Below, in pieces: positions 20,878 to 36,620 of a stretch of 36,620 bases of DNA. Positions within the stretch are counted from its first letter, which is position 1, and every line of letters begins with the position of its first letter. The stretch is from a bacterium. Lineage in GTDB: Bacteria > Auribacterota > UBA3054. The stretch spans positions 1-36,620 of the forward strand of contig JAFYXV010000006.1 of NCBI GenBank assembly GCA_017557885.1, written 5' to 3'. The position numbers were made by a program, and so were the translations under genes. The notes under the pieces are model-generated. The model was given only the letters and a program-made list of their open reading frames with translations, was not told where the DNA came from and made no database searches.

Positions 20878-22473
20878 ATGGAAAGCAATCGCAAACTTTT
20901 GAACGGCGACGAGGCCATCGCCTACGCCGCCAGGAACGCCGGATTGAACCTCGGCATAGGATATCCCGGGACTCCCTCCACGGAGATCCTGGAGACCTTC
21001 TCAAGCTTAGGCGGCCGCGCCCAGTGGGCGCCCAATGAGAAAGTCGCGGCGGAAGTCGCTATCGGCGCCGCCTTGGCCGGCGGCAAAGCCATCGTCACCA
21101 TGAAGCACGTGGGCATGAACGTGGCCGCTGACCCCTTCTTCACCGCCGCTTACACCGGCGTGAAAGGCTCCCTTGTCATCTGCGCCGCGGACGACCCGGG
21201 CATGGCCTCCAGCCAGAACGAGCAGGACAGCCGCCGCTACGCCGTGGCCGCCGGGCTGCCGATGCTCGAGCCCGCCGATTCCCAACAGTGCTACGATTAC
21301 CTGCTTTTGGCGGTGGAACTCTCCAATAAATTCGGAACGCCCGTCATATTGCGTCTTACCACCAGAGTCTGCCACAGCAAGACTATCGTGAAGGTCGGTC
21401 CTTTCAACGAACCTAAGACTCCCTCCTATACCAAGGACGCCAAGAGCCACGTCATGGTCCCGGCCTTCGCGAGACTGGCGCACGTAAGATTAAGAAAAAG
21501 ACTGAAAGACCTGGAAGAATGGAACTGCCAGAACGGCCCCTGCACCTTCCTTGGTCCTGAAGGCGCCAAATCCGGCGTCATCGCCACCGGCATCTCCGCC
21601 ATGCACGCTGCGGAAGCCTTGCCCGAAGCAAGGATCATGCAGCCCGGCATGACGTATCCCCTGCCCCTGGCAAAGATCAAAGAATTCGTGAATTCCCATG
21701 AAGACAATCTCGTCGTGGAAGAAGGCGACCCCATAGTGGTGGAAACCTTACTGGCCAACGGCATGAAAGTCCGCGGTAAAAAGGAAGCCTTCCGCTTCGG
21801 CGAACTGAACGTAGGCCGAGTTAAAAAACTCGCCGCTGACGACATTACTCCCGATCCCGCCCCCGCTCCCGGAAAACCGCCACAGCTCTGCCCCGGCTGC
21901 CCGCACAGGCTTACCTTCCAGGCCCTGCATGACCTGGGCTGCACGGTCTGCGGCGACATCGGCTGCTACACCCTGGGCGTCCTTCCTCCCTATGAGGCGA
22001 TGGACACCTGCGTCTGCATGGGCGCTTCTATTTCCGCGGCCCTCGGCATGCGCGAAGTTCTTCCCGCTGAACAGGCGAAGAGGATCGTCTCCGTCATCGG
22101 CGACTCCACCTTCATGCACAGCGGCTTGACAGGACTTGTGGACATGGTCTATAACAGACCGCCCCACGGCCACGTGGTGATACTGCTTGACAACTCCACC
22201 ACAGCCATGACCGGCCTCCAGGAACATCCGGGCACCGGCCGCAGGCTCGACCATACCGAGACCGTGAGAGTCGATCCCGCCGCTGTCGCCAGAGCCATCG
22301 GCGTGAGAGTCGAGGAGATCGATCCCCTGCCCATGAAAGACACTCTGAAAGACTTCATCCAGGAACAGTTGGACAAGGAAGACGTCTGCATGATAATCAT
22401 GAAACGCTCCTGCCTCCTGGCCCTGAAACATCTTAAAGACAGAGAGGCTCAGGCTAAGGAAAAGAAAAACTAA
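20878..22473 (+). CDS. iorA: Indolepyruvate:ferredoxin oxidoreductase alpha subunit, without ferredoxin domain
   Basis: IorA, with IorB, oxidatively decarboxylates arylpyruvates to arylacetyl-CoA with ferredoxin as electron carrier; the reaction is reversible. The 531 residues show GYPGTPSTEI, MKHVGMNVAADP, DDPGMASSQNEQDSR (pyrimidine-binding half), CPGCPHR, then the TPP-binding part GDIGCYTLG, GDSTFMHSG and NSTTAMTGLQEHPG. Typical IorA ends with a two-cluster ferredoxin domain, bringing it to about 580-650 residues. Here the chain stops soon after MKRSCLLALKHLKD, with no CxxCxxC motifs. The reading frame and stop look clean and iorB follows 10 bp on, so this seems a natural variant, not a damaged gene. 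Confidence 0.9.
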   Translation: MESNRKLLNGDEAIAYAARNAGLNLGIGYPGTPSTEILETFSSLGGRAQWAPNEKVAAEVAIGAALAGGKAIVTMKHVGMNVAADPFFTAAYTGVKGSLVICAADDPGMASSQNEQDSRRYAVAAGLPMLEPADSQQCYDYLLLAVELSNKFGTPVILRLTTRVCHSKTIVKVGPFNEPKTPSYTKDAKSHVMVPAFARLAHVRLRKRLKDLEEWNCQNGPCTFLGPEGAKSGVIATGISAMHAAEALPEARIMQPGMTYPLPLAKIKEFVNSHEDNLVVEEGDPIVVETLLANGMKVRGKKEAFRFGELNVGRVKKLAADDITPDPAPAPGKPPQLCPGCPHRLTFQALHDLGCTVCGDIGCYTLGVLPPYEAMDTCVCMGASISAALGMREVLPAEQAKRIVSVIGDSTFMHSGLTGLVDMVYNRPPHGHVVILLDNSTTAMTGLQEHPGTGRRLDHTETVRVDPAAVARAIGVRVEEIDPLPMKDTLKDFIQEQLDKEDVCMIIMKRSCLLALKHLKDREAQAKEKKN

Positions 22474-22483
22474 GGAGAAAACA

Positions 22484-22963
22484 ATGAAGAACATCAATAT
22501 AGTTTTTGCGGGCCTCGGCGGCCAGGGCGTTTTGAGAGCATCCGACATAACCGCGGAAGCCGCCTTCCTGACTGGCTTCGACGTTAAGAAAGCGGAAGTC
22601 CACGGCATGAGCCAGCGCGGCGGCTCCGTAAGCAGCGACGTGCGTTTCGGGGAAGGCATCAAAAGCCCCATGATCCCCGCCGGCACTGCCGACTTCCTAG
22701 TCCTCCTGGACGCTTCCCAAAAAGATCCCAACGCTCTTTACTGTTCCGACAGCACCGTCATAATAGACCCCTCTGTCATCAAGATCGAAACGCTGCCCAA
22801 TCCCAAAGGCCTGAACGTGGCCTTGCTGGGCTACCTCTCCAAAATGCTGCCCGCTATCCCGGAAGAAAATTGGCTGAAAGCCCTGGATAACAACTTCCCG
22901 GAAAAACTGAGGGAATCCAACGTGGTGGCTTTCAACATCGGCCGCGAAGCGAACCAAAAGTAA
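22484..22963 (+). CDS. iorB: Indolepyruvate oxidoreductase beta subunit
   Basis: The gamma-type catalytic partner of IorA, with the fold of pyruvate-ferredoxin oxidoreductase gamma chains. Diagnostic segments are FAGLGGQGVLRASDI at the N-terminus and KAEVHGMSQRGGSVSSDVRFG. At 159 residues it is shorter than the usual ~190-200 but keeps the core. A Shine-Dalgarno (AAGGAG) precedes the ATG, 10 bp after iorA. It is the last gene of a two-gene operon ended by a strong hairpin. The context near PaaK and aromatic biosynthesis genes supports aryl rather than aliphatic 2-oxoacid substrates. Confidence 0.88.
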   Translation: MKNINIVFAGLGGQGVLRASDITAEAAFLTGFDVKKAEVHGMSQRGGSVSSDVRFGEGIKSPMIPAGTADFLVLLDASQKDPNALYCSDSTVIIDPSVIKIETLPNPKGLNVALLGYLSKMLPAIPEENWLKALDNNFPEKLRESNVVAFNIGREANQK

Positions 22964-23183: not shown

Positions 23184-24269
23184 TTACTGCAGAGGAAGGG
23201 CGAGGAAGTCCTCAAAGAAGGAGGGGTAGGATTTGGCGGAGCAGGCAGCGTTGTCGATGGTGATTGGGCTTTGGGCGTTGGTGGCGGCGGCGGCGGCGGA
23301 CATGGCGATGCGGTGGTCGCCGAAGGTCTTTATCTCTTCCTTGACTTGGAAAGGCTTATCTGTGCCTGCAACAGTGAAAGAGTCTTCCGTTATTTGGCAG
23401 TTGATGCCGATTGAATTTAGGAGCGCTTGGGTGGTGGCGACGCGGTCGGATTCTTTCAGTCTTAGTCTTTTGATGCCAGTGAAGGTCGTTTGGGCGCCTG
23501 TTCCGGCGGCGGCCACAGCCAGAGGCGGGAAAATATCCGGGCATTGTGAGACGTCTTTTACTCCGCCTTTTTCTTTCAGGAGATCAAGAAGTTTTCTGTC
23601 GGGCTGGAGGGACGCGTTGTTAAGACCTTTTATTTCTATTTCGGAACCGAGATAATTCATGACCAGGAAGAAAGAGGCGCCGGACCAGTCGCGCTCAGGC
23701 TCGATATTAATGGGAGCGGTGTAAGTCTGATTACCGGGGACGAGGAAGCCGGTTTCTGTTTCCTGAATTGTAATATTGCTGTCTTTTAAGACTTGCAGAG
23801 TAAGATCAACATAACCCCTGGATTCCAAAGGCGTGGTGAATCTAATCTCACTGTTCCCTTTCAGGATAGGCAGAGCGAAAAGAAGCCCTGTGGCGAACTG
23901 CGAGGAGACGTTGCCGGGAAGTTCGAAAAGGCCAGGCTCAAGTTTTTCGTAATCGATCCCCGGGCGCTTCGAAAGGCGGCCTTTTGTGACGTAGGCGGCG
24001 GTCTTCCCCAGAGCGGCTGAGATCGGCTTCAAAAAGCGCAAGGTGGAGCCGGATTCACCGCAGTCCAGAGTCGGGTTCAGATCGTCTTCCTTCAGGGCAA
24101 GGAGGCAGCGCTTGGTGGCGGCAATATCCTCCGGGTCCGTCGGGCTTAGAGCCAGACGCTGGAAATTCCCGCCTAAGAAGTCCGCGATAAGCAGGCGATG
24201 AAGGTGGGATTTGGAAAAAGGCGGCGTGATGGAGCCTTTTCTTCTGCCGTTGGGAAGTATAAGAGACAT
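23184..24269 (-). CDS. aroA: 5-enolpyruvylshikimate-3-phosphate synthase
   Basis: AroA joins PEP to shikimate-3-phosphate, the sixth shikimate step. The 361 residues are short for the family (usually 420-450) but retain key blocks: SKSHLHRLLIADFL, ESGSTLRFL, SSQFATGLLFALP, DWSGASFFLV, LKESDRV, FGDHRIAMS and KSYPSFFEDF. The ATG at 24269 lies 2 bp after the aroC stop (TGATCATG); a TTG at 24275 is less likely. The PEP/phosphonate loop near the N-terminus, usually NGxxxxR-like, is replaced by a compressed region, so glyphosate class cannot be read reliably. It is the last gene of the aro operon. Confidence 0.9.
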   Translation of the reverse strand: MSLILPNGRRKGSITPPFSKSHLHRLLIADFLGGNFQRLALSPTDPEDIAATKRCLLALKEDDLNPTLDCGESGSTLRFLKPISAALGKTAAYVTKGRLSKRPGIDYEKLEPGLFELPGNVSSQFATGLLFALPILKGNSEIRFTTPLESRGYVDLTLQVLKDSNITIQETETGFLVPGNQTYTAPINIEPERDWSGASFFLVMNYLGSEIEIKGLNNASLQPDRKLLDLLKEKGGVKDVSQCPDIFPPLAVAAAGTGAQTTFTGIKRLRLKESDRVATTQALLNSIGINCQITEDSFTVAGTDKPFQVKEEIKTFGDHRIAMSAAAAATNAQSPITIDNAACSAKSYPSFFEDFLALPLQ

Positions 24270-24271
24270 GA

Positions 24272-25288
24272 TCAATCTAAAAGCAGGTCAAGTGCGACTA
24301 AAGCTGCCATGGCTTCCACTACGGGAAGCGCTCTGGGAACGATGCAGGCGTCGTGACGGCCTTCAATCACAAGCTCTTCTTCCGTTTGCTTGGAAAGCGA
24401 AACGCTTTTCTGGGGTTTAGAGATGGAAGGCGTAGGCTTGATAGCGACGCGGAAGACTATCGGCATGCCGCTGGTCATGCCGCCTAGAGAACCGCCGTGA
24501 TTGTTGGTAGTAGTTTCTATCTTTCCGTCTTTGACGGTAAAAGAGTCGTTGTTAAGAGAGCCTTTTGAGGCCGTGCCGGCGAAACCGCTGCCGAATTCTA
24601 TTCCTTTGACCGCCGGGATACCGAAAATTGCCTGGGCAAATCTGTTCTCCACTCCATCGAAGATCGGTTCTCCTAGGCCGACGGGAAGATTAGTTATTTC
24701 GCATTCTATTACGCCGCCCACGCTGTCCCCTTCCGCTCTGGCCGCTTCTATAACGGCCTTGGCTTCCGGGCTCAAGATATCATTTGCGTTTTGCTCGTTC
24801 TTTTGAGCGCCGATGGAAACGATCCTGCCTTTGACTTCAATGCCCTTGCTCTCAAGATACTGAATAGCCAGGGCGCCGGAAAAACAAAGGCCCGCCATTA
24901 TCCTGCCGGAGGAGTGGCCGCCGCCTCTGTAGTCGTTGGCGCCGCTGGTCTTCACGTTCATAGTGTAGTCGGCGTGACCCGGCCTCATAAGATCGCTCAG
25001 TTTGGAGTAATCCTTGGAATGGGCGTCGCTGTTTTTGATGACAGCCGTGATAGGCGTGCCGCAGGTCTTCTCGTTGAAGAGGCCTGAGAGGATCTCGAAA
25101 GCGTCGGATTCGCATCTGGCGGTGGAGCCGGGCTGGGAGCCGGGCGCTCTTCTTTTCATGAAAGCTTTTACTTTTTCCAAGTCAGGAGTGAAGTTGGCGG
25201 GAAAACCATCCAGAACGCAGCCGATGGCAGGCCCATGGGATTCGCCGAAGAGCGTCACTTTAAGATTTTTGCCGTAAGTGGAGGACAT
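24272..25288 (-). CDS. aroC: Chorismate synthase
   Basis: AroC converts EPSP to chorismate using reduced FMN. The 338 residues are near normal and include GESHGPAIGCVLDGFPA, RRAPGSQPGSTARCESD, the RPGHADYT segment, RGGGHSSGRIMAGL and the C-terminal GRHDACIVPRALPVVEAM. It lies between aroDE (18-bp gap) and aroA (2-bp gap) on the minus strand. The enzyme produces the branch point consumed by the pheA- and tyrA-type genes at the head of the same operon. Confidence 0.96.
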   Translation of the reverse strand: MSSTYGKNLKVTLFGESHGPAIGCVLDGFPANFTPDLEKVKAFMKRRAPGSQPGSTARCESDAFEILSGLFNEKTCGTPITAVIKNSDAHSKDYSKLSDLMRPGHADYTMNVKTSGANDYRGGGHSSGRIMAGLCFSGALAIQYLESKGIEVKGRIVSIGAQKNEQNANDILSPEAKAVIEAARAEGDSVGGVIECEITNLPVGLGEPIFDGVENRFAQAIFGIPAVKGIEFGSGFAGTASKGSLNNDSFTVKDGKIETTTNNHGGSLGGMTSGMPIVFRVAIKPTPSISKPQKSVSLSKQTEEELVIEGRHDACIVPRALPVVEAMAALVALDLLLD

Positions 25289-25306: not shown

Positions 25307-26749
25307 TTATGTGAAGAATAGTCTGTTCTGTTCCCTGGCCTGCTCTATGAGCATGCTGAAGCCGTTTTCAACTCGGCAACCCGATTTAGCGGCGCGCGCC
25401 ACAACGGGAGTGGTCTCAGGTTTGTAGATGATATCGTAGAGGGCTTCTTTGCCAATGAATTCATACTGCGGGATAGGATCGTTTTCCGTTGCGCTTTGAC
25501 CTTGCAAGCCGACGGAAGTGCACTGCACTATGATGTCTGGCTTGCAGTCGCTAGTGAATTCGCTGAGGGTTGCGCAGGAGAAACCATATTTGTCCGCGAT
25601 CGCTTTGGCTTTAGCAATGTTTCTGGCGAAGATCGTCGCGTTGGCTTTTTCTTTATGAAGAGCGTAGGCGATGGCTTTGGCGGCGCCGCCGGAACCTAAA
25701 ACGGCCACGCGCTTCCCTTGTACGCTGTCGGTCTTGAGGAAATGTTTCAAAGCTTTGGTGAAACCGATCCAATCGGTGTTATAGCCGATCCTTTTTCCGT
25801 CTTTGAAAACAACGGTATTGGCGGCGCCGATCGTTTTTACGGCCTCGTCAGCTTCGTCAAGGTAGTTGAGCAGCGCTTCCTTGTGAGGAATAGTGACGGC
25901 CAGACCTTTGAATTTCAAGGCTTCGGCAAAAGTCAGCGCTTCCTCGATATTCTCTGCCGGGATGGGAAGCATGACGGCGTTGCGATTTTCAGCTTTGTAA
26001 AAGTTTCTGTGCACTTCCGGGCTGGAGGTGACGTTCAAGGGAAATCCGGTCACGCCGCAGAGAGCGGTGTCGCTATTGATGTTTTTGAAATCGTAAACGT
26101 CGAGCAGAGTTTCGGGATCGATGTGGCCTATTGAGCCGGTGTGACCAATAAGTTCCTTAGGCGACGTAAAGGTAAGAAAAGAACCGAGACGGTCAGCCAA
26201 CACTCTTGAAGGGAAACCTACGTTACCCATGGCGCAGATGATCCTGTCTTTTGGCGGAAGAGTTTTCGCCAACTCGAAAAGTTTTCGCATTTCCCCGGCG
26301 TTTTCAGGCATGAAAGCGACCTTCGGGATCTCATAGGGACTCCTTGCCATCTCGTCCATTCTTAAGATCACGTCCGCGGAAGTCGGCTCGAAGTAATGCG
26401 CGCTTCTTATGATCCTTGTTTCAGCCATGTCAGCCAGCTTCAGCAAAGATTTGACCTCCAGGTCTGCTTCCAGATCAACATAGTCGAAATCCGCCAACTG
26501 TGCCAAAAGCATTACTCTGTCAAATTCGTCGCCGGCAAATCTTCCGCCATCCTCTTCTCTTCTTATCGTCAGGATGCAAGGCTTGGGACAAAACGAGGGA
26601 AAATCAGAAATGTATTCATATTCCTCTTCGTTCAGATAGTCGGCCCGCAATTCAAAAAGATCAACGTAAGGTGCATATTTCTTCGCCAGCAGAGAATCCT
26701 CTTCCAGCGTTGAGGCGGTGAGAGTAAGACAGACTTGACCGGTGACCAT
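25307..26749 (-). CDS. aroDE: Fused type I dehydroquinase / shikimate dehydrogenase
   Basis: A 480-residue bifunctional enzyme for shikimate steps three and four. Residues 1-225 are a type I 3-dehydroquinate dehydratase: ELRADYL, active-site His118 (RSAHYF) and Schiff-base Lys143 (IPKVAFMP). Residues 228-480 are an NADP shikimate dehydrogenase: GVTGFP start, catalytic Lys290 (VTIPHKEAL), Asp326 (GYNTDWIGF) and the nucleotide loop GSGGAAKAI. The substrate-site serines usually seen as HSxSP appear as VTSSP. Such DE fusions are known in plants and Chlamydiae. A GGAG site lies 8 bp before the ATG. It starts 4 bp after the aroKB stop. Confidence 0.95.
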   Translation of the reverse strand: MVTGQVCLTLTASTLEEDSLLAKKYAPYVDLFELRADYLNEEEYEYISDFPSFCPKPCILTIRREEDGGRFAGDEFDRVMLLAQLADFDYVDLEADLEVKSLLKLADMAETRIIRSAHYFEPTSADVILRMDEMARSPYEIPKVAFMPENAGEMRKLFELAKTLPPKDRIICAMGNVGFPSRVLADRLGSFLTFTSPKELIGHTGSIGHIDPETLLDVYDFKNINSDTALCGVTGFPLNVTSSPEVHRNFYKAENRNAVMLPIPAENIEEALTFAEALKFKGLAVTIPHKEALLNYLDEADEAVKTIGAANTVVFKDGKRIGYNTDWIGFTKALKHFLKTDSVQGKRVAVLGSGGAAKAIAYALHKEKANATIFARNIAKAKAIADKYGFSCATLSEFTSDCKPDIIVQCTSVGLQGQSATENDPIPQYEFIGKEALYDIIYKPETTPVVARAAKSGCRVENGFSMLIEQAREQNRLFFT

Positions 26750-26753
26750 TCGC

Positions 26754-28133
26754 TTACTCCAGTGAGATCTTTGTGGCTGTTACGCTGCCCCAGGCGCAGG
26801 GCAGGGAGAAAGTGACGGTGTTGCCGGAGCGCTTTTTGTCGCGGCGCATGATTAATTTCAGGTCGTCGAGCGTGATGCCTTCGGGAAGCTTGGTGGGAAG
26901 GCCGTGGGCGGAAAAGATCTCAGAGAGTTCTTCAGGGAAACTATCTTTGGCAAGGCCCATTCTTTGGGCGATCCTGGCTTCCTCGACGCAGCCTATAGCC
27001 ACCGCTTCGCCGTGGCTTATCGCAAAGTTGCTCTTAAGTTCCAGGGCGTGGCCGACGGTGTGACCGCAGTTCAAAAGAATGCGGCGGCCGCAACGCTCAA
27101 AAGGATCTTCCCTTACGATATCGACTTTCACCTGCAGATTGTCGGCGATCTCCCTGGCGGTGGGGATCTCGGAGAACTTGGGTTCACTTCCTTTGATGAG
27201 AGCGTGCTTGATCATTTCCGCCTTGCCGACTTTCAGTTCTTTGACAGGGAGAGTTTTCAGTCTCTCGGCATCGATAAGCACGAGTCTGGGGGAATGGAAA
27301 GCGCCCACCAGATTCTTGCCGATCGCAAGGTCGCAGCCGGTCTTGCCGCCGGTGGAGGCGTCCACCATGGCAAGCAAGGTCGTGGGGAAATTTATCCAGT
27401 CGATGCCGCGCATCCAGGTGGCGGCGGCGAAGCCTACGAGATCGCTGGTCACTCCCCCGCCGAAGGAAGCGATCGTATCCTTCCTGCCGATGGCGTGATC
27501 GTTCAGTATCCCCCAGATCTTTTCAATGGTAGAAATATTTTTAAACTCTTCGCCGGAAGGGATAAGTTCCAGAGCGGTATCTTTCAGAGCTTCGGGCTGG
27601 CAGTTGGCGGCGTTGGTGTCGGCGATGACAAGTTTGGCGAAGCCGTTGAGATCGCCCATGGCTTCACCCACGATGACCAGAGAGGTGGGAAGCGCAAAGG
27701 CTTTGGCGATCCTGCTCTTGAAGGAAGCGTAATGCTCTTTTCTTTCTTCGGCTTTGTTGCCCAGAGGGCGGGCGCCGGGGTTCCTTTGGAAACGCTTTTC
27801 CAATTCTTCCTTGGAAGGCGCTTCCAGAAGCCACACTAGGCCGAGGCTTTCCGTAAGCTTGCGGTTCTCGGGGTCGAGGAGCGTGCCGCCGCCCAGGGAG
27901 ACGACGCTGTCGCTGAAATTCTTTTTCTGGGTGAGCTCTCGCAGCGTTTCCTTTTCGATGCTGCGGAAAAGCGCTTCCCCGCCTTCCTCGAAGATCGCGG
28001 GAATGGTCTTGTGGGACTTGGCTTCTATCTCGCTGTCGAGATCGAAAAAAGTTTTGCCCAGGCTCAGCGCCAGGTTTTTGCCGACGGTGGTCTTTCCGCT
28101 GGCGGGAGGTCCGTAAAGGAAGATAGCTGACAT
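26754..28133 (-). CDS. aroKB: Fused shikimate kinase / 3-dehydroquinate synthase
   Basis: A 459-residue fusion covering shikimate steps five and two. Residues 1-145 are shikimate kinase with Walker A GPPASGKTT, the shikimate-binding DLD, and VSLGGGTLL. Residues from about 149 are 3-dehydroquinate synthase: GGGVTSDLVGFAAATWMRG, PTTLLAMVDASTGGKTG, GKNLVGAFHSP, KAEMIKHALI and the zinc-site NCGHTVGHALE. Both active sites look complete. The gene begins 1 bp after the tyrA stop and is followed by aroDE after 4 bp, so the reading frames are packed for coordinated translation. Confidence 0.94.
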   Translation of the reverse strand: MSAIFLYGPPASGKTTVGKNLALSLGKTFFDLDSEIEAKSHKTIPAIFEEGGEALFRSIEKETLRELTQKKNFSDSVVSLGGGTLLDPENRKLTESLGLVWLLEAPSKEELEKRFQRNPGARPLGNKAEERKEHYASFKSRIAKAFALPTSLVIVGEAMGDLNGFAKLVIADTNAANCQPEALKDTALELIPSGEEFKNISTIEKIWGILNDHAIGRKDTIASFGGGVTSDLVGFAAATWMRGIDWINFPTTLLAMVDASTGGKTGCDLAIGKNLVGAFHSPRLVLIDAERLKTLPVKELKVGKAEMIKHALIKGSEPKFSEIPTAREIADNLQVKVDIVREDPFERCGRRILLNCGHTVGHALELKSNFAISHGEAVAIGCVEEARIAQRMGLAKDSFPEELSEIFSAHGLPTKLPEGITLDDLKLIMRRDKKRSGNTVTFSLPCAWGSVTATKISLE

Positions 28134-28134
28134 T

Positions 28135-28935
28135 TTATTTTTCCTCCCCTTGCAGTTTTTCTTTTATAGCCTGGCCTTCCGCGAGCTGGGAGATCAGGCT
28201 CTCCCTGTCATCGTTTGCGATGGCGGTCTGGAAATCCGTGAGCCTTTCGATCATTCTCTCGAGGACCGGCAGAAGCTCCGTTTTGTTCATGAGAAACAAT
28301 TCCGACCAGAGCTCGGGGTCGGGCGCGCCGACACGGGAGAGGTCCCTAAAACTGCCGGCAGAAAAGCCGGAGCGCTTAAGGGCAAGCTCGTCCCTCAGGT
28401 AGGCGGAGGAAACAAGGTGGCAGAGCTGGCTGGTGTAGGCGATTCTTTTGTCGTGATCTTCGGGCGTGGTGAAAATGACTTCCTTGAAGCCCAGTTCGGT
28501 GAAGAAAGGCACAATGTCTTCCGCAATCTTTTGATCCTGCGGGTAGGGCGTCAGGATCATGGAAGCGCCTCGGAAAAGCTCCGCATCGGAATTCTCGAAA
28601 CCGCTGACTTCCTTCCCGGCCATGGGGTGTCCGCCGATGAAGGTGAAGCTGCCGTCCAGTTTGGGAGCGAGCTCTTTTATGACTGCGCTTTTTACGCCGC
28701 AGACGTCGATAACAAGCGCGCCTTTTTTCAGATCGGCGGCGTGCTCAAGGAGCCATTTTACGGTAAGCGTCGGGTGAAGAGCGATGATGACGAGGTCGGA
28801 ATTCGAGACCTCTACAGGATCGTTCCTGTCGATGCCCCTGACGTTGTAGCCGGCCTTTTGGGCGGCCTTGAAAAAAGAGCCGCCGATGAGGCCGAGGCCA
28901 ACGATGGCGATTTCTTTGAGATCAGATCTCTGCAT
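28135..28935 (-). CDS. tyrA: Prephenate dehydrogenase
   Basis: TyrA-type oxidative decarboxylation of prephenate (or arogenate) toward tyrosine. The 266 residues begin with a Rossmann loop VGLGLIGGSFFKAA, have GGHPMAGKE (the substrate His in the HPMAG motif) and IAYTSQLCHLVSSAYL. There is no fused chorismate mutase or ACT domain. Its start overlaps the end of the pheA-type gene by 14 bp. Whether the natural substrate is prephenate or arogenate cannot be read from the sequence. Confidence 0.88.
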   Translation of the reverse strand: MQRSDLKEIAIVGLGLIGGSFFKAAQKAGYNVRGIDRNDPVEVSNSDLVIIALHPTLTVKWLLEHAADLKKGALVIDVCGVKSAVIKELAPKLDGSFTFIGGHPMAGKEVSGFENSDAELFRGASMILTPYPQDQKIAEDIVPFFTELGFKEVIFTTPEDHDKRIAYTSQLCHLVSSAYLRDELALKRSGFSAGSFRDLSRVGAPDPELWSELFLMNKTELLPVLERMIERLTDFQTAIANDDRESLISQLAEGQAIKEKLQGEEK

Positions 28936-30067
28936 ACGCTCCTAAGAAAGTGAACTGCTCGATGTCCGGGTCAGTGGAGAGCTCGGATAAAAGCTTGATG
29001 GCGCCCGGGTCGTTGGGCTTGGACTCGAACTCGAAGGTGAATCGGAACTCGAATTCCATGCCGGGAATGGGACGCGATTCCAATTTGGTGAGATTCAGCC
29101 CGATGGAGGAGAACCTTGCCAGAATGTTGGCAAGAGAACCAGGCTTATGAGGCAGCGTCATGATAAGGGAGATCTTGGAGGCGTCCTTGTAGATCTCCAG
29201 TTCCCTGGATATGCAGATGAAGCGGGTGAAGTTGGAGGGCGTGTCGCAGATCTCGTCCTTTATAATTTCGAGATTGTAAAGCTCGGCGCACTTCCTGGAG
29301 GCGATGACCGCCTGATCCGTGCGGCCGCTTTCAGAAAGCTCCCGGGCGGCCAGGGCCGTGTTGGCGGTGGGCGTCTGCTTGACGTTCCGCATATTAAGCA
29401 GGAACTTCGAGCACTGGGAGAGCGCCTGGGGATGGCTCTTTATTTCCTTGATGTCGCTCATCCTGACGCCTTTCTTGGCCAGAAGGACGTGGGAGACATG
29501 TAATTTGCAGGCCTTGACGATCCTGAAGTCGTGGCGCAGCATGTTGTCATAGACCGTGGTGACGGAGCCCGCCGAGGAGTTTTCGATTGGCAGTACGCCG
29601 TACTGGCACATGCCCTTCTCCACGGCGCTGAAGATGTCGGCGAAGGAGTTGAAGAAGAGAATGGCGGGAAACTTGAAGAAAGTGGAGGCCGCCTGCTGGG
29701 AGAAGGCGCCTTCCGTCCCCTGGCAGGCCACCGTGGCGTGGGAGGGAAACTCTGCCGGAGCCATGGCCACAGCCCTTTTGATCTCGCTTTCCAGTTTGCT
29801 TTCCTTCGTGATGAACTTGCGTTCCTTGGCGCGGGAAAGGCTGAAGAGTGTACTAAAGAGCATGGCGACTTCGTTTTCGTATTCCGGTCCGGCGGCGAGG
29901 GACAGCCTGTTTAGGATCTCCCTTTCCCTCTTGGGATCGCTGACGGGCAGATTTTCCTGCTGCTTCACTTCAGCGACTTTTTTGACGCACTCGAAGCGCT
30001 TCAAATAAAGCTCGACTATTTTGTCGTCGATGGCGTCGATCTCGTTTCTGATGTTTTCCTTGTCCAT
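28922..30067 (-). CDS. pheA: Bifunctional chorismate mutase / prephenate dehydratase
   Basis: Converts chorismate to prephenate and on to phenylpyruvate. The 381 residues carry an AroQ chorismate mutase (1-90: IRNEIDAIDDKIVELYLKR and DPKREREILNRL), a prephenate dehydratase domain (about 110-285: GTEGAFSQQAA, VLPIENSSAGSV and the catalytic TRF in SNFTRF), and a C-terminal ACT domain (295-375) with the phenylalanine-binding ESRP motif. Feedback inhibition by phenylalanine is therefore expected. It is second in the aro operon; a TATAAT box lies just upstream. Confidence 0.95.
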   Translation of the reverse strand: MDKENIRNEIDAIDDKIVELYLKRFECVKKVAEVKQQENLPVSDPKREREILNRLSLAAGPEYENEVAMLFSTLFSLSRAKERKFITKESKLESEIKRAVAMAPAEFPSHATVACQGTEGAFSQQAASTFFKFPAILFFNSFADIFSAVEKGMCQYGVLPIENSSAGSVTTVYDNMLRHDFRIVKACKLHVSHVLLAKKGVRMSDIKEIKSHPQALSQCSKFLLNMRNVKQTPTANTALAARELSESGRTDQAVIASRKCAELYNLEIIKDEICDTPSNFTRFICISRELEIYKDASKISLIMTLPHKPGSLANILARFSSIGLNLTKLESRPIPGMEFEFRFTFEFESKPNDPGAIKLLSELSTDPDIEQFTFLGAYAEI

Positions 30068-30101
30068 AATTCAACTTTCCGATTTATCTCAAAGTATTTA
30101 T

Positions 30102-30107
30102 ATTATA
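30102..30107 (-). promoter_or_regulatory. Possible internal -10 box upstream of pheA
   Basis: A perfect TATAAT (minus strand) lies immediately after the aroF stop, about 35 bp before the pheA ATG. No good -35 is seen at the right distance. If used, it would give pheA and later genes some transcription independent of the attenuator. Confidence 0.3.
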
Positions 30108-30110
30108 CCC

Positions 30111-31118
30111 TTAACGGCAAGCGTAGGGCCTGACCGCCTTTATCGCCTTCATGGTCTCGGCGAACATGGCCGGCGTCTGGCTCTGGGCGCCGTCGCACTT
30201 GGCCTTGGGCGGATCGTTGTGGACTTCGATGATGAGGCCGTCCGCGCCGATGGCCGTCGCGGCCACCGCCACGGGATGCACGAGCCTGGCTACGCCGGTG
30301 GCGTGACTGGGATCGACCACCACCGGGAGGTGCGAGAACTGGTGGAGAAGCGGCACCACGGAAAGGTCGATGGTGTTCCTGGTGGCCGTCTCAAAGGTCC
30401 TGATGCCGCGTTCGCAGAGGATGACGTTGGGGTTGCCGGACGCCATGATGTATTCCGCGCTCATCAGAAGTTCCTGCAAAGTGGAGGAAAGTCCCCTCTT
30501 CAGAAGGATGGGCTTCTTGGTGTTGTGGCCGACTTCCTTAAGAATGTCGAAGTTCTGCATGTTGCGGGCGCCGATCTGGATAACGTCCACGTCGTTGAAG
30601 TATTCGAACTGGGAGAAGTTCATAAGCTCGGTGACGATAGGAAGGCCCGTTTCCTTCTTGGCCGCCAGAAGCATCTTCAAGCCTTCCACGCCAAGACCCT
30701 GGAAGGAGTAAGGGCTCGTCCTGGGCTTGAAGGCGCCGCCCCGGAGAAGCGTCGCGCCGGCGGCTTTGACCGCCTTGGCCACCTCAATTATCTGCTCCTC
30801 GCTCTCCACGCTGCAGGGGCCGGCGATGACCTGGAAATTACCGCCGCCGATAAGCACGCCGCCGCAGTCTATTATGGAGTCATCGGGATGGAACTTGCGG
30901 TTGGCGGCCTTGTAGGGGTCGCCCACGCGCTGCACGCTGGCCACCACGTCGAGGGCGGAGACCAAATCAATGTCGAGATGCGCCACGTCGCCGACGCAGC
31001 CAATAAGAGTTTCATGGGAACCGACGGAGATGTGCGGGTCGATGTTCTGGGCCTTCAGCCAATTGATGAGGTTGTCCACCTGGCTTTTCTGGGCGCCCTG
31101 CTTGATGATGATTATCAT
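30111..31118 (-). CDS. aroF: 3-deoxy-7-phosphoheptulonate (DAHP) synthase
   Basis: Condenses PEP and erythrose-4-phosphate, committing carbon to the shikimate pathway. The 335 residues match the type I-beta (Thermotoga/Bacillus-like) form: an N-terminal ferredoxin-like regulatory domain (1-70), then the barrel with VIAGPCSVES (metal Cys), RGGAFKPRTSPYSFQG, QIGARNMQNF, LLKRGLSSTLQE, VVVDPSHATG and IIEVHNDPPKA. The N-terminal domain mediates allosteric inhibition in the Thermotoga enzyme. A Shine-Dalgarno (AAGGAA) precedes the ATG. It is the first enzyme gene after the aromatic leader peptide and attenuator. Confidence 0.95.
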   Translation of the reverse strand: MIIIIKQGAQKSQVDNLINWLKAQNIDPHISVGSHETLIGCVGDVAHLDIDLVSALDVVASVQRVGDPYKAANRKFHPDDSIIDCGGVLIGGGNFQVIAGPCSVESEEQIIEVAKAVKAAGATLLRGGAFKPRTSPYSFQGLGVEGLKMLLAAKKETGLPIVTELMNFSQFEYFNDVDVIQIGARNMQNFDILKEVGHNTKKPILLKRGLSSTLQELLMSAEYIMASGNPNVILCERGIRTFETATRNTIDLSVVPLLHQFSHLPVVVDPSHATGVARLVHPVAVAATAIGADGLIIEVHNDPPKAKCDGAQSQTPAMFAETMKAIKAVRPYACR

Positions 31119-31157
31119 AGTTTTTCCTTATTTGTTGATTATTATTTGCTTAAAAAG

Positions 31158-31190
31158 AAAGAGCCTGGCTTTGCTCAAGCCAGGCTCTTT
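31158..31190 (-). terminator. Attenuator terminator in the aro operon leader
   Basis: Read on the minus strand, a perfect 14-bp stem (aaagagcctggctt and its complement) with a 5-nt loop is followed by CTTTTT. It lies between the leader-peptide stop (31218) and the aroF start (31118), within the operon's own 5' leader. No other minus-strand gene lies upstream that it could serve. Confidence 0.88.
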
Positions 31191-31248
31191 TCGTATTCGG
31201 AATCCACTTTTATTCAACTACGACAAGGTTCCCCCAGCTTGAGAAAGC
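31168..31248 (-). promoter_or_regulatory. Predicted antiterminator pairing of the aro attenuator
   Basis: The segment at 31233-31248, inside leader codons 15-20, can pair with 31168-31184, the 5' arm and loop of the terminator. It makes 16 pairs with one bulged C (31173) and two G-U pairs. Forming this helix would prevent the terminator. The same segment can also fold locally as a 5-bp hairpin (AGCTT-TCTC-AAGCT), which would leave the terminator free. Pairings were worked out by eye. Confidence 0.7.
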
Positions 31249-31292
31249 TCGGTGTAATAAAAGTAGAACCAATAGCCGAAATTGATTTTCAT
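31218..31292 (-). CDS. Aromatic leader peptide of the aro operon
   Basis: A 24-residue ORF (MKIN...GTLS) with FGYWFYFYY at residues 5-13: eight aromatic residues out of nine, with Phe, Tyr and Trp all represented. It lies about 26 nt after a predicted promoter, 27 nt before a terminator hairpin, and 100 bp before aroF. This is the arrangement of trpL- and pheL-type leader peptides: a ribosome stalling at aromatic codons when any charged aromatic tRNA is scarce would leave the downstream segment free to form the antiterminator. The Shine-Dalgarno is weak (GGAAAA, about 11 bp upstream). The peptide itself probably has no function beyond translation sensing. Confidence 0.85.
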   Translation of the reverse strand: MKINFGYWFYFYYTELSQAGGTLS

Positions 31293-31324
31293 TTGGAGAT
31301 AGTTTTCCGTGATTGATTGCGAAT

Positions 31325-31353
31325 ATGGTAGCACTTTCATTTTCATTTTGCAA
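31325..31353 (-). promoter_or_regulatory. Promoter of the aro operon
   Basis: On the minus strand, TTGCAA (31348-31353), a 17-bp spacer and an extended -10 (TGC then TACCAT, 31325-31330) predict a start near 31318. That gives a short untranslated lead of about 26 nt before the leader-peptide ATG. Confidence 0.55.
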
Positions 31354-31424
31354 GGGCTTAGGGAGAAACGCTGGCCAAAAAAAAGATTAAGCGGTGGATT
31401 TTTCCGGAAGTTTTTTGCTAAACT

Positions 31425-31430
31425 TATAAA
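31425..31430 (+). promoter_or_regulatory. Possible -10 box for the ACT-PaaK genes
   Basis: TATAAA lies about 60 bp before the first ACT gene, on the strand opposite to the aro promoter and about 70 bp from its -35. The -35 region (near TTTCCG) is weak. The two operons therefore diverge from a shared 370-bp region. Confidence 0.35.
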
Positions 31431-31490
31431 AAATACATTCCGACAACGAAAGGAAGTATCAAGTTCACCGCTTCCCAAAAGGAGAATAAA

Positions 31491-31919
31491 ATGAAAACTG
31501 CAAGACAGCTTTCCGTGTTTTTGGAGAACAAGCCTGGCCACGCCTACAACATCTGCAAGACCTTAGGCGACGCCGGCATAAACATCTTTACGCTGTCCTT
31601 GGCCGACACGAATCAGTTCGGGCTTCTGCGTTTGATCGTGGAGAAACCCGAAGCGGCCGGCGAGCTGCTTAAAAAAGGAGGAGTGATAGTCAACATAACC
31701 GAGCTTCTGGCGGTCAGGATAGACAACCGTCCGGGAGTATTGGCCAAGATCTACGAACTGCTCTCCTCTCTTGACATCAATTTGGAATACGCTTACGCTT
31801 TCGCCATGCGCCGCATCTTCTTATTGAGAGTGAGCGACAACGAAAAAGCCTTCCAGATCCTGAGCGAGAACGGCTTCACCCTTCTCTCCCACGAGGAACT
31901 CTTCTCCGACGAAAACTAA
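31491..31919 (+). CDS. Tandem ACT-domain protein, copy 1
   Basis: A 142-residue protein made of two ACT modules: residues 1-66 (QLSVFLENKPGHAYNICKTLGDAGINIFTL) and about 69-140 (AVRIDNRPGVLAKIYELLSSLDINLEYAYAF). ACT domains bind small ligands, commonly amino acids. Stand-alone tandem-ACT proteins of this kind are often encoded next to phenylacetate-CoA ligases. A Shine-Dalgarno (AAGGAG) precedes the ATG and a paaK-type gene follows after 15 bp. Control of the ligase by an aromatic ligand is inferred, not shown. Confidence 0.85.
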   Translation: MKTARQLSVFLENKPGHAYNICKTLGDAGINIFTLSLADTNQFGLLRLIVEKPEAAGELLKKGGVIVNITELLAVRIDNRPGVLAKIYELLSSLDINLEYAYAFAMRRIFLLRVSDNEKAFQILSENGFTLLSHEELFSDEN

Positions 31920-31934
31920 AACAAAGATAACAAT

Positions 31935-33248
31935 ATGGAAAAATCCGCCCTACAAGCCTTAGCGCAAAAAGACTTCATGAGCCGCGACGAACTGGAGTCC
32001 ATCCAGCTTTCGAGGCTTAAAAACATAGTTTCCCACGCCTACAAAAATCAGGCGCTCTTCAGGTCCCGCATGCAGGAGAAAGGTCTCGACGACACCTGCA
32101 TCAAGGAGATGAAGGACATCCAGAAGCTGCCCTTCTTCAAGAAAGTTGACCTCAGGGACACTTATCCCTTCGGCCTGCTTTCCGTCCCCATGGATGACAT
32201 CATCAGACTGCAGGCCAGTTCCGGCACCACCGGAAGCCCTATCGTCATCGCCTACACCAGGGAAGACGTGGCCTGCTGGCAGGAAGCCACCATGCGCGCC
32301 CTCATGATCGCCGGCATAGGTTCTGGCGACATCATCCAGAACGCCTACGGCTACGGCCTCTTCACCGGCGGCATGGGGTTGCATTACGGCGCCGAAGGAC
32401 TGGGCGCCACCGTATTGCCCATTTCCAGCGGCAACACCGAGCGCCAGATCAAACTGATGAGCGACTTCGGCGTGACCTGCATAAGCTGCACGCCGAGCTA
32501 TTTCCTCCACATCATCGAAAAAGCCAAGCAGCTGGGCTACGACTTCAAGAAGATGAAACTAAGGAACGGCATCTTCGGCGCCGAGCCCTGGACCAACGAG
32601 ATGCGTCAGAGGATCGAGGAAGAATCCGGCATCAAGGCCTGGGACATCTACGGACTGACCGAGATCAGTGGACCTGGCGTGGCCATGGACTGCCCCGCCA
32701 GAACGGGACTGCATATGTTCGAGGACCTCTATTATCCCGAGATCATCGACCCCGAGACCGGCGAAGCGCTGCCTGACGGCACGGAAGGCGAACTGGTCAT
32801 CACGACTTTGCACAAGTTCGGCATGCCCATGATAAGGTACCGCACCAGGGACATCTCCGTCATCGTCAAGGGGACCTGCGAATGCGGCCGCACCATCAGG
32901 AGAATAAAACGCATCGACCACAGGAACGACGACATGCTGATAATAAGAGGCGTCAACGTCTTCCCGAGCCAGATCGAAGCGGCGCTCCTGACGATCCCGG
33001 GCGTCCAGCCGCACTACCACATCATCGTCAGGCGCCACGGCGACCTGGACACCCTGGAAGTGCAGGTGGAGCTTTCCGCCGAGCTCTTCGGCGACACCAT
33101 CCGCTCCATCGAAGTCATCCAGAAGAAGATCGGCAACGCCATCAAGAGCATCATCGGCCTGGCCGTCACGGTCACTCCCGTGGAGCCGGGAAGCTTAGAG
33201 CGCTCCATGGGCAAAGCCAAGCGCGTCACCGACCTGCGCAACAAATAA
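31935..33248 (+). CDS. paaK: Phenylacetate-CoA ligase family enzyme, copy 1
   Basis: An AMP-forming aryl-acid:CoA ligase of 437 residues, the normal PaaK length. Motifs: SSGTTGSPIVIAYT (phosphate loop), YGYGLFTGGMGLHYG, YGLTEISGPGVAMDC, RYRTRDIS with CECGRTIRRIKRIDHRNDD, and IIRGVNVFPSQIEAAL ahead of the C-terminal domain with the adenylation Lys region. Substrate could be phenylacetate, indoleacetate or a related acid. It is paired with an upstream ACT gene, and the pair is repeated directly downstream. A hairpin separates the two pairs. Confidence 0.88.
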   Translation: MEKSALQALAQKDFMSRDELESIQLSRLKNIVSHAYKNQALFRSRMQEKGLDDTCIKEMKDIQKLPFFKKVDLRDTYPFGLLSVPMDDIIRLQASSGTTGSPIVIAYTREDVACWQEATMRALMIAGIGSGDIIQNAYGYGLFTGGMGLHYGAEGLGATVLPISSGNTERQIKLMSDFGVTCISCTPSYFLHIIEKAKQLGYDFKKMKLRNGIFGAEPWTNEMRQRIEEESGIKAWDIYGLTEISGPGVAMDCPARTGLHMFEDLYYPEIIDPETGEALPDGTEGELVITTLHKFGMPMIRYRTRDISVIVKGTCECGRTIRRIKRIDHRNDDMLIIRGVNVFPSQIEAALLTIPGVQPHYHIIVRRHGDLDTLEVQVELSAELFGDTIRSIEVIQKKIGNAIKSIIGLAVTVTPVEPGSLERSMGKAKRVTDLRNK

Positions 33249-33305
33249 GCGCTCCGTTTTTCCGCGCTTTTCATACCGGGCAGGACCAACCTCTTGCCCG
33301 GTATG
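33247..33305 (+). terminator. Weak terminator and 11-bp hairpin between the two ACT-PaaK pairs
   Basis: Two hairpins follow the first paaK. The first is a 6-bp stem (aagcgc / gcgctt, 33247-33269) with trailing Ts that overlaps the stop codon. The second is a perfect 11-bp stem (33272-33282 with 33295-33305: cataccgggca / tgcccggtatg), loop 12 nt, with no T-tract. It is followed by AT-rich DNA that may hold a promoter for the second pair. Partial termination or mRNA processing and stabilisation are both possible. Confidence 0.45.
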
Positions 33306-33357
33306 CTATTATATAAGATTAGAAACTATTTTCTCTAACCAAAGGAGCCTAAAATTA

Positions 33358-33786
33358 ATGGAAACCGTAAAACAGCTTTCCCTCTTTTTGGAAAACAAGC
33401 CCGGACACGTCTATAGCATCTGCAAGGCTTTGGGCGACGCCGGAATAAACATCTACACCCTGACTCTGGCCGACACCGCCCAGTTCGGCATCCTGCGTCT
33501 GATCGTCGAGGATGCGGAATCCTCGAAGGCCCTATTGGAGAAAGAGGGCTTCATCGTCAACATCGCCGATGTCCTGGCGGTCAGGATCGACAACCAGCCC
33601 GGAAGATTGGCGCAGGTCGCCGAGATCCTGAACAAAGAGGGCATCAACGTGGAGTACGTTTACGCCTTCGCCAACCGCCACATCTTCCTCTACCGCGTGG
33701 ACGATACGGAAAAGGCCTATCAGAAACTTATATCCAACGGATTCTGCGTACTGAGTTCGCACGAACTTTTCAACACCAATAAATAA
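33358..33786 (+). CDS. Tandem ACT-domain protein, copy 2
   Basis: A 142-residue paralogue of the protein at 31491, with the same two-module plan: QLSLFLENKPGHVYSICKAL at the start and AVRIDNQPGRLAQVAEIL from about 69. A Shine-Dalgarno (AAGGAG, 33342-33347) lies 10 bp before the ATG. It starts 10 bp before the second paaK-type gene. Identity to copy 1 is high through most of the length, and differences cluster in the ligand-facing loops and C-terminus, which could reflect different ligands (inference). Confidence 0.85.
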   Translation: METVKQLSLFLENKPGHVYSICKALGDAGINIYTLTLADTAQFGILRLIVEDAESSKALLEKEGFIVNIADVLAVRIDNQPGRLAQVAEILNKEGINVEYVYAFANRHIFLYRVDDTEKAYQKLISNGFCVLSSHELFNTNK

Positions 33787-33796
33787 GACTGGAAAA

Positions 33797-35113
33797 ATGA
33801 AACTGGAAAACAAGATTTGGGATAAGGCGGAATGCTTATCAAGAGACGAGATCGAGAACATTCAGGTCCAGAGACTGAGAGCGACTGTCAAGCAGGTGAT
33901 GAACGTCCCCTTCTACGCAGAGAAGTTCAAGGAGATCGGCATAGGGCCTGAGGACATAAAAAGCGTAGCCGACGTGAAGCATCTCCCCTTCACGACCAAG
34001 GCCGACATGCGCAACAACTATCCTCTGGGACTGATGGCTGTGCCCAAGGAAAAAGTTTTGCGTTTCCACGGCTCCTCCGGCACGACGGGCAAACCGACCT
34101 TCGTCGCCTACACGAAAAACGACCTTGAGATGTGGTCCGACCTTGTGGCCCGCTTTTTGTACGCCGGCGGCGCCCGCCCCGGCAACACAGCCCAGATCAG
34201 TTTCGGCTACGGCCTCTTCACCGGCGGCTTCGGATTGCACTACGGCCTCGAGAAGATCGGCTCCTCCATCATCCCCGCCGCCAGCGGTAACACCAGGCGC
34301 CAGTTCACGCTCCTGCAGGACCTTCAGCCGGAACTTTTGGTCTGCACTCCGACCTACGCCCTGCGCCTCATAGAATACATGGAAGAGGAGAAGATCCCCA
34401 GGGAAAGTTTGAATCTGAAAGTGGCCTTCCTGGGCAGCGAGCCCTGGACCGAAGAGATGCGCCTCTACATCGAGGATAAGCTCCAGGTCAACACCTGCAA
34501 CAACTACGGTCTCTCGGAAGTCATAGGGCCTGGCATTTCTGGCGAGTGCGTCTATCACACCGGCATGCACATCCAGGAGGATTACTTCCTGGTGGAATGC
34601 CTGGATCCCGAAACGCTGGAGCCCGTTCCGGACGGACAGCTGGGAGAGCTGGTCATCACCGCCCTCAACAAGGAAGCTATGCCCATGATAAGATACCGCA
34701 CCAGAGACCTGGCCTACCTCATCAGCGACACCGACTGCCCCTGCGGCAGAACGACCAAGAGGATGAGCAGAATTAAAGGACGCTCCGACGACATGCTGAT
34801 AATAAGGGGCGTCAACGTCTTCCCCAGCCAGGTTGAAGAAGCGCTTCTGCAGTGCAAGGACGTCACGCCGAACTTCCTCATCGTATTGGACCGCCCCGGC
34901 TCCCTCGACCGCTCGGTCGTGAAAGTGGAGATGGCCCCGGCCTTCTTCTCCGACAAGATGAGCGAGATGCAGATGCTTAAAAACAGGCTGGAGGAGACCA
35001 TCCGCTCCTATACCGGCATCCACTTCGAAGTGGACCTGGTCCAGCCGCAAAGCATCGAGCGCTTCACCGGCAAAGCGGCCCGCGTAATCGACAATCGACC
35101 CAAGGAAAAATAA
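33797..35113 (+). CDS. paaK: Phenylacetate-CoA ligase family enzyme, copy 2
   Basis: A 438-residue paralogue of the ligase at 31935 with the same motifs: SSGTTGKPTFVAYT, YGYGLFTGGFGLHYG, YGLSEVIGPGISGEC, RYRTRDLA, CPCGRTTKRMSRIKGRSDD and IIRGVNVFPSQVEEAL. The two copies differ throughout, so the duplication is not recent, and distinct aryl substrates (for example phenyl- versus indole- or hydroxyphenyl-acetate) are plausible. It is followed 3 bp later by the symporter gene, indicating one transcript and a shared substrate pathway. Confidence 0.88.
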   Translation: MKLENKIWDKAECLSRDEIENIQVQRLRATVKQVMNVPFYAEKFKEIGIGPEDIKSVADVKHLPFTTKADMRNNYPLGLMAVPKEKVLRFHGSSGTTGKPTFVAYTKNDLEMWSDLVARFLYAGGARPGNTAQISFGYGLFTGGFGLHYGLEKIGSSIIPAASGNTRRQFTLLQDLQPELLVCTPTYALRLIEYMEEEKIPRESLNLKVAFLGSEPWTEEMRLYIEDKLQVNTCNNYGLSEVIGPGISGECVYHTGMHIQEDYFLVECLDPETLEPVPDGQLGELVITALNKEAMPMIRYRTRDLAYLISDTDCPCGRTTKRMSRIKGRSDDMLIIRGVNVFPSQVEEALLQCKDVTPNFLIVLDRPGSLDRSVVKVEMAPAFFSDKMSEMQMLKNRLEETIRSYTGIHFEVDLVQPQSIERFTGKAARVIDNRPKEK

Positions 35114-35116
35114 AAA

Positions 35117-36586
35117 ATGTCATCCTTAACAACCATCCTTCTAGTTGCCTTCATTATTCTTCTGGTCACCACCGGCGTTTACGCCATGCGCAGGACCAAG
35201 AACCTTGAGGACTTCTTCCTGGGCGGCCGCAACGTCGGCCCCTGGATCTCGGCCTTCTCCTATGGAACCAGCTATTTCTCCGCGGTCATCTTCATCGGCT
35301 TTGCGGGAAGCTTAGGCTGGAAATTCGGCTATCCCGCCATGTCCATCGGAATAGGCAACGCCATTTTCGGCGCTCTTTTGGCCTGGATCGTTTTGGCAAA
35401 GAGAACGCGCCGCATGACCCAGAACCTCGGCGCCATGACCATGCCGGGCTTCTTCTGCGAGCGCTATGCGGCGCCGTATTTGAAGCCGCTGGCCGCCATC
35501 ATCATTTTCATTTTCCTTGTCCCCTATTCCGCTTCCGTTTACAAAGGCTTGGGCTATCTTTTCGTCGAGAACTTCAACATCCCCTACGAAGTGGCCTTGT
35601 GGCTCATGACCGGCGTGGCCGCCATCTACCTCATGCTGGGCGGGTACCTGGCCATGACTCTTACGGACTTCATCCAGGGCTTGATCATGCTGGCCGGCTC
35701 CATTCTGATCATGTGCCTTCTGGCCAACAAGGGCGGCGGCTGGGCTAATGTTTTCCAGAACATCACCGCCGCCAGGATCGAGCACACTCCCGTTTCCACC
35801 TTCGGCTGGATAACGCTGGCTTCCGCCGTGATGATGACATCCTTTGCTCCCTGGGGCCTTCCTCAGATGATCCAGAAATATTACGCCATCAAGAACGAGA
35901 AGGTTATCTTCAAGGCCACGGTAATCACCACCATCTTCGCCATGATAATCGGCTGCGCGGCTTACTTCACCGGCGCCATGACGCACCTCTACTTCAAGGC
36001 CGGGCTCCCCGACGCCAAGGGCGTTTACGACACTCTGGTCCCCATCATGCTGAAGGATTGGCTGCCGGCTCCCCTGATGGCTCTGTTCCTGCTTTTAATT
36101 CTGTCCGCTTCCATGAGCACGCTTTCCTCCCTGGTCTTGGTCTCAAGTTCGACAGTCACCATTGACTTCTACAAGGGCATCGTCAACAAGGAAGCTTCCG
36201 AGGGCACCACGGTCACATTGATGCGCATCATGAGCGCCATATTCCTGCTTCTCTCTTACGTAATAGCCCACTCCGACAGCAAGTTCATCGTGGACCTTAT
36301 GAGCTTAAGCTGGGGCGCCGTGGGCGGAGCCTTCATCGCTCCCTATCTTCTCGGCCTTTACTGGAAGGGCACGACCAAAGCGGGCGCCCTGGCCGGCATC
36401 ATCTGCGGCTTAGGCTTGCAGATGGTTTTGATCGCCCTTACTCCTCTTCCTTCCACGCTTTGCTCCATGATCTCCATCATCGTTCCTTTCGCGGTGGTGC
36501 CCATCGTTAGCTCCTTCACGGAAAAAGTTCCGCAGGAAGTGGTGGAAAAGGCTTTCAGAGTCCCCGCCGAAACGCCGGAACAATAA
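35117..36586 (+). CDS. Sodium:solute symporter (SSS family)
   Basis: A 489-residue polytopic membrane protein with about 13 hydrophobic segments, as in PutP/PanF-type symporters. Family-like regions include the short first helix followed by FFLGGRNVGPWISAFSYGTS, the GNAIFGALLAWIVLAKR loop and SASMSTLSSLVLVSSS (sodium-site region in the eighth core helix). It is 3 bp from the upstream ligase gene, so an aryl acid or aromatic compound is a reasonable cargo, but SSS substrates cannot be told from sequence. The remaining 34 bp of the window show no further gene. Confidence 0.88.
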   Translation: MSSLTTILLVAFIILLVTTGVYAMRRTKNLEDFFLGGRNVGPWISAFSYGTSYFSAVIFIGFAGSLGWKFGYPAMSIGIGNAIFGALLAWIVLAKRTRRMTQNLGAMTMPGFFCERYAAPYLKPLAAIIIFIFLVPYSASVYKGLGYLFVENFNIPYEVALWLMTGVAAIYLMLGGYLAMTLTDFIQGLIMLAGSILIMCLLANKGGGWANVFQNITAARIEHTPVSTFGWITLASAVMMTSFAPWGLPQMIQKYYAIKNEKVIFKATVITTIFAMIIGCAAYFTGAMTHLYFKAGLPDAKGVYDTLVPIMLKDWLPAPLMALFLLLILSASMSTLSSLVLVSSSTVTIDFYKGIVNKEASEGTTVTLMRIMSAIFLLLSYVIAHSDSKFIVDLMSLSWGAVGGAFIAPYLLGLYWKGTTKAGALAGIICGLGLQMVLIALTPLPSTLCSMISIIVPFAVVPIVSSFTEKVPQEVVEKAFRVPAETPEQ

Positions 36587-36620
36587 AAACTTTTCGCGCT
36601 GAAAACAAAAAGCGGCAGCC

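Follow-up and report, generated by a model that had tools for sequence, protein, structure and literature searches.

The question raised by this locus is how a single operon encoding the whole route to phenylalanine and tyrosine is controlled, and to which amino acids its expression might respond. The window (the whole stretch of DNA analysed here, 36,620 nucleotides) comes from a rumen Kiritimatiellota bacterium whose nearest relatives are rumen MAGs; its aroF protein is 98% identical to that of locus L033 and 82% or less identical to those of Kiritimatiellae records. An initial annotation had proposed that a ribosome-mediated attenuator sensing Phe, Tyr and Trp lies ahead of a complete aro operon. 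The operon is indeed complete, in that all of the shikimate steps could be assigned, together with pheA and tyrA, to the following seven genes.

30111 to 31118, minus strand: aroF-type DAHP synthase, which opens the operon (above the cut-off of two NCBIfam models, PRK08673 at 464 bits and TIGR01361 at 378 bits)
28922 to 30067, minus strand: pheA, chorismate mutase-prephenate dehydratase (Pfam CM_2 and PDT)
28135 to 28935, minus strand: tyrA, prephenate dehydrogenase
26754 to 28133, minus strand: aroK-aroB fusion, shikimate kinase and 3-dehydroquinate synthase
25307 to 26749, minus strand: aroD-aroE fusion, dehydroquinase and shikimate dehydrogenase
24272 to 25288, minus strand: aroC, chorismate synthase
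23184 to 24275, minus strand: aroA, EPSP synthase

These genes overlap slightly or are separated by gaps of about 43 nt at most, and they provide the full shikimate pathway with the Phe and Tyr branches and without trp genes. On the plus strand, divergent from the operon, 31491-36586 carries two genes for proteins with paired ACT domains, a phenylacetate-CoA ligase-like gene after each of them and a sodium:solute symporter gene last, and a 2-oxoacid (indolepyruvate) ferredoxin oxidoreductase is encoded at 20878-22963; together these genes suggest that aryl acids are taken up and salvaged or broken down next to the aro operon. Positions 26600-36620 of the window overlap the start of contig C1 (1-10021) with 99.88% identity (12 mismatches), and the aro leader thus occurs twice in the assembly, which is probably an unmerged contig overlap rather than a true duplication.

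Upstream of aroF, all of the elements claimed previously, namely a promoter-like sequence, a 24-codon ORF, a terminator and an alternative helix, could be located on the minus strand. They are given here in the direction of transcription.

31325 to 31353, minus strand: promoter-like element TTGCAA-17-TACCAT (from sequence and conservation in the genus)
31218 to 31292, minus strand: leader ORF of 24 codons plus stop, MKINFGYWFYFYYTELSQAGGTLS (conserved in the genus)
31213 to 31285, minus strand: protector hairpin, which hides the antiterminator strand in the ribosome-free leader (minimum-energy fold)
31254 to 31280, minus strand: candidate control codons 5-13, FGYWFYFYY, with four Tyr, three Phe and one Trp (from sequence and ribosome-position folding)
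31233 to 31248, minus strand: antiterminator 5' strand (region 2), codons 15-20 (16-pair helix with 31184-31168)
31168 to 31184, minus strand: antiterminator 3' strand (region 3), within the terminator 5' arm and loop (from the helix and pair counts)
31152 to 31190, minus strand: intrinsic terminator with a 14-bp stem (31190-31158) followed by the U-tract CTTTTT (from folding and compensatory changes)

The alternative helix (31248-31233 with 31184-31168) is made of 16 standard pairs with a single bulged C, and both it and the 14-bp terminator are present as first described. The promoter-like element was too weak to be called by a generic promoter scan of the window. Its spacing is nonetheless identical and its sequence near-identical in 7/7 genus genomes and in a sister leader ahead of trpE, with zero mismatches to the common pattern in the aro leaders and most of the trp leaders of these seven genomes. 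One match from the promoter scan, at 31138-31111, was rejected as an aroF promoter since its -10 falls within the aroF coding region. The leader ORF has a weak Shine-Dalgarno sequence (GGA about 15 nt upstream); an in-frame ATG at about 31346 was rejected as its start because it falls within the promoter spacer, and the 24-codon start is therefore the sensible choice.

The fold of the leader RNA is more stable than those of 200/200 dinucleotide shuffles (z -4.85), and we considered how a ribosome would alter it by folding the leader RNA as far as the terminator loop, a stage at which the 3' arm has yet to be synthesised, and placing a ribosome footprint at each codon in turn. The terminator 5' arm and loop together comprise 19 nt, of which 13-14 pair with the upstream leader when the ribosome sits on codons 5-13 and only 1-5 when it sits on codons 16-23; the full antiterminator also forms when the stall is simulated at Trp8. 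The boundary of the switch lies directly after the last aromatic codon, and past codon 15 the ribosome blocks the antiterminator. Without a ribosome just 3 of the 19 nt are paired with the leader, because the protector hairpin, spanning about 31285-31213, sequesters the arm. In the model the arm becomes partly free again once the ribosome reaches the stop codon (12/19 nt), and shut-off therefore depends on release of the ribosome and refolding. The protector is favoured in the ribosome-free state of the window leader and the trp leaders of the same assembly (G000), and the antiterminator in that of L006 and L008, so basal termination may vary between species. In 57 of 61 distinct leaders, a ribosome on the aromatic block allows more pairing than one that has moved past it, although this arises partly by construction, given that the arm follows the block. 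The two conformers, whose folding had been suggested as a check on the initial annotation, came out as mutually exclusive, with the position of the ribosome picking between them in these simulations.

Taken together, the leader shows the features by which trpL/pheL-type attenuators are recognised: an ORF whose nine codons FGYWFYFYY would serve as control codons for the downstream pathway; an intrinsic terminator (31190-31152) between the leader and the first structural gene; a mutually exclusive antiterminator that uses the terminator 5' arm, as judged from the 16 pairs and from the swap tests and double change described below; and, by computation, a structure decided by the stall position, with codons 5-13 leaving the arm free and codons 16-23 blocking it. 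On this basis, a trpL/pheL-type ribosome-mediated transcription attenuator very probably controls the seven-gene aro-pheA-tyrA operon. Transcription would start near 31318. When charged tRNAs are plentiful, the ribosome would run beyond the aromatic codons and cover or pass region 2, after which the leader would refold into the protector hairpin and the terminator (31190-31158) would end transcription near 31152. Under a shortage of Phe or Tyr (and probably of Trp too), the ribosome would be expected to wait at codons 5-13, which would let region 2 capture the 5' arm and loop of the terminator ahead of synthesis of the 3' arm, and transcription would then continue into aroF. The analysis shows the anatomy of the leader, the mutual exclusivity of its structures, and their conservation and covariation, and we infer the start site, leader translation, stalling and regulation in the cell.

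In every full-length fold the antiterminator is the less stable of the two structures, and the choice between it and the terminator must therefore be kinetic, as in known attenuators. The greater stability of the terminator would also fit an ordinary terminator or basal dampener next to a short ORF that is translated without any sensing role, and intrinsic terminators and short ORFs are both common. We consider this reading very unlikely given how closely the aromatic codons and the terminator are associated with aroF. Of 79 related aroF genes, 57 have an aromatic leader and terminator in front of them, compared with 5 of the 1,040 other genes of at least 200 codons in the same loci that served as the control set. 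Among those five, three are pheA genes in first position of the same operon (L036, L041 and L045) and one reflects the same aroF leader (L068). Aromatic leaders are likewise carried where pheA (L063) or tyrA (L051) comes first, so the leader follows the head of the operon and not one gene.

The arms also match their own terminators across genera, which again argues against a plain terminator. When the terminator arm of each leader was swapped for that of another, mean pairing energies weakened from -20.5 to -16.6 kcal/mol in 11 Kiritimatiellota leaders and from -14.0 to -10.7 kcal/mol in 43 other leaders, and in each set 0/20,000 permutations reached the observed mean. Per-leader shuffles were less clear-cut, giving p<0.05 for arm-terminator pairing in only 43% of single leaders, with a mean z of -1.9 (n=61). 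In an alignment of the genus aro and trp leaders, 88.8% of cells in the antiterminator are standard-paired, a value cut to 24-66% by sliding its partner; just one antiterminator pair has changed on both sides (U-A/C-G), and three terminator pairs show such compensatory changes. A covariance-type model built from this alignment matches leaders from other genera along their full length (E values of the best six, 4e-6 to 3e-3), and the leader, terminator and promoter are kept in six other genomes of the genus, seven with the window. Aligning the leaders of relatives had been proposed as a further check, and it bore the attenuator out, with the aromatic codons conserved, the arms covarying and the alternative helix kept.

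Not every short ORF in these loci behaves in this manner. Aromatic-rich ORFs before aroF in five loci of the same phylum (L011, L017, L018, L019 and L028) were rejected as leaders, as they resemble the C-terminal end of PheA, and no terminator was found after them. Some clostridial leaders (in L053, L088, L056, L110 and L112) stop about 50-85 nt before the terminator without clear arm-to-terminator pairing, and these may use another intermediate structure. In L046, a leuD-like gene is preceded by a short ORF (MKNTETHGCGLWFGDYWRFAFT) at a distance of about 1771 nt from the downstream aroF; this ORF is accompanied by a hairpin but a poor U-tract, and is probably not part of an attenuator.

Further evidence comes from trpE in the same genome (L113 and L124), which is preceded by a leader of its own, MNTKMNFWWWYAFSGLFQAGTTPRS (FWWWYAF), and then by a GC-rich terminator; the L113 locus spans about 428970-430659 of contig C1 in assembly G000. 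The promoter, the leader start and the arm encoding QAG are nearly the same sequence in the trpE and aro leaders, and the terminators are laid out alike. The control codons are what differ, being WWW with Tyr and Phe in the trpE leader, and this substitution for the aro control codons is difficult to reconcile with a plain terminator. A trpE leader with WWW and the shared promoter was present in all seven genus genomes searched (L113, L115, L118, L123, L124, L126, L127 and L128). Judged from sequence, the two leaders are evidently paralogues whose control codons have been rewritten. Searches of the genus with the promoter pattern and with the covariance model gave no third copy; the covariance model scored the aro and trp copies at 119-171 bits and the next match, limited to the terminator-bearing 3' half, at 25.6 bits.

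It might also be asked whether the same terminator is operated by a different RNA sensor, such as a T-box, a riboswitch or a trans-acting protein, since low-GC Gram-positive relatives commonly place their aromatic genes under T-boxes (see Panina 2003, cited in PMC1262725). We regard this as less likely still than a plain terminator. No T-box or riboswitch reached the Rfam gathering score, with no match of any kind in the window and only tRNAs in seven relatives, and the ORF and hairpins account for the leader RNA, which is short. Ribosome-mediated attenuation of the aro operon is thus well supported by the conserved aromatic codons, the covarying arms, the ribosome-position logic and the paralogous trp leader.

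Which amino acids the attenuator senses needs more careful interpretation. Phe and Tyr codons dominate the leaders everywhere, and putative sensing of both by the aro leader is strongly supported by codon content and simulated folding. Of the three-way sensing proposed initially, the part concerning Trp rests on one codon, which is conserved in the genus and common in Kiritimatiellota, but nearly absent from the rest of the leader-bearing lineage. Among Kiritimatiellota leaders 10 of 17 carry a Trp codon, compared with 4 of 49 others (Fisher p 6e-5, the related sequences not being independent), and Trp makes up just 4 of the 445 aromatic residues in non-Kiritimatiellota leaders. It may be that the attenuator effectively responds to Phe and Tyr only, with the single Trp codon incidental and Trp supply left to the trpE leader, and we place the chance of this only just short of even. 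Such a reading agrees with the rarity of Trp elsewhere, with the separate WWW leader of trpE in the genus and with an operon that has Phe and Tyr branches and no trp genes; it sits less easily with a Trp codon kept in every genus leader, including that of the diverged L008 (MLNRINYGYWYFYF), and in 10/17 Kiritimatiellota leaders, and with the full antiterminator produced by the simulated Trp8 stall. Given the single Trp codon, the WWW leader of trpE and the response of Corynebacterium glutamicum aroR, the closest case to have been studied, to Phe limitation only, the notion that scarcity of any one amino acid opens the operon is therefore a prediction. The fuller proposal, in which a single leader would work as an OR gate for all three aromatics over a whole chorismate-Phe-Tyr operon, accompanied by a paralogous WWW trp leader, and in which the aroF-attenuator unit moved between phyla while staying at the operon head, is tentative, and we rate it somewhat below an even chance.

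The movement between phyla is suggested by the aroF tree. In a tree of 52 aroF proteins, sampled by similarity to the window protein and including some MAG contigs in which binning errors are possible in single cases, the leader-bearing lineage forms one group with 100/100 support. This group contains the window clade, Clostridia, two Anaerolineaceae, one Treponemataceae and one Lentisphaerota record, and thereby spans Kiritimatiellota, Clostridia, Chloroflexota, Spirochaetota and Lentisphaerota. The sampled aroF proteins of the window's own order and phylum fall separately and lack the leader, which suggests that aroF and its attenuator travelled together between phyla.

The mechanism is a classical one, and what is new here is the sister trpE leader, the retention of the leader at the operon head where pheA or tyrA takes first place, and the spread of one leader-bearing aroF lineage over several phyla. 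A 2010 survey reported few leader peptides outside Proteobacteria and Actinobacteria (PMC2965389), and our search of the open-access literature, which leaves out most subscription journals, found no description of Kiritimatiellota or clostridial aroF leaders; the mix of control codons and its spread with one aroF lineage across phyla seem to be undescribed. Classical leader-peptide attenuation is extended to Kiritimatiellota and, upstream of one aroF lineage, to Clostridia, Chloroflexota, Spirochaetota and Lentisphaerota, for aromatic genes where T-boxes or repressors are the usual expectation. The aro and trp sisters in one genome indicate that a few rewritten control codons may re-target the same switch, and the dozens of leaders offer naturally occurring variants with which the reading of mixed control codons could be tested.

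A single leader with control codons for more than one amino acid is also seen in Escherichia coli ilvL and thrL, which serve the branched-chain or threonine pathways. With E. coli trpL and pheL (Rfam Trp_leader and Phe_leader) the window leader shares control codons and the alternatives of protector, antiterminator and terminator, whereas those leaders serve single-branch operons and use codons for one amino acid. The Rfam Phe_leader model (RF01859) matches the window along its full length, on the right strand and in the right place, with a score of 28.2 bits against a cut-off of 55. The earlier suggestion that no similar leader has been described was too strong, as two described leaders precede aroF. 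The first is aroR of C. glutamicum, a Phe-Tyr-Phe leader (PMC4046766) in which attenuation is triggered by limitation for Phe and not Tyr, according to the summary in PMC11802643 citing Neshat 2014. By its published description, aroR is likewise a mixed Phe/Tyr leader ahead of a DAHP synthase operon, with experimental support for ribosome-mediated attenuation; it differs in belonging to an Actinobacterium and in having no Trp codon reported. The second is the uORFC-13-1 motif of Acholeplasma, predicted by comparative genomics with 24 examples (PMC8632094), which by its description also places a uORF with one or more Phe codons and a terminator before aroF, but in another group of bacteria and with Phe only described and no Tyr/Trp mix reported. 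Given these precedents, and with no Rfam cut-off reached, the window leader is therefore best considered a known kind of attenuator with an unusual mix of control codons.
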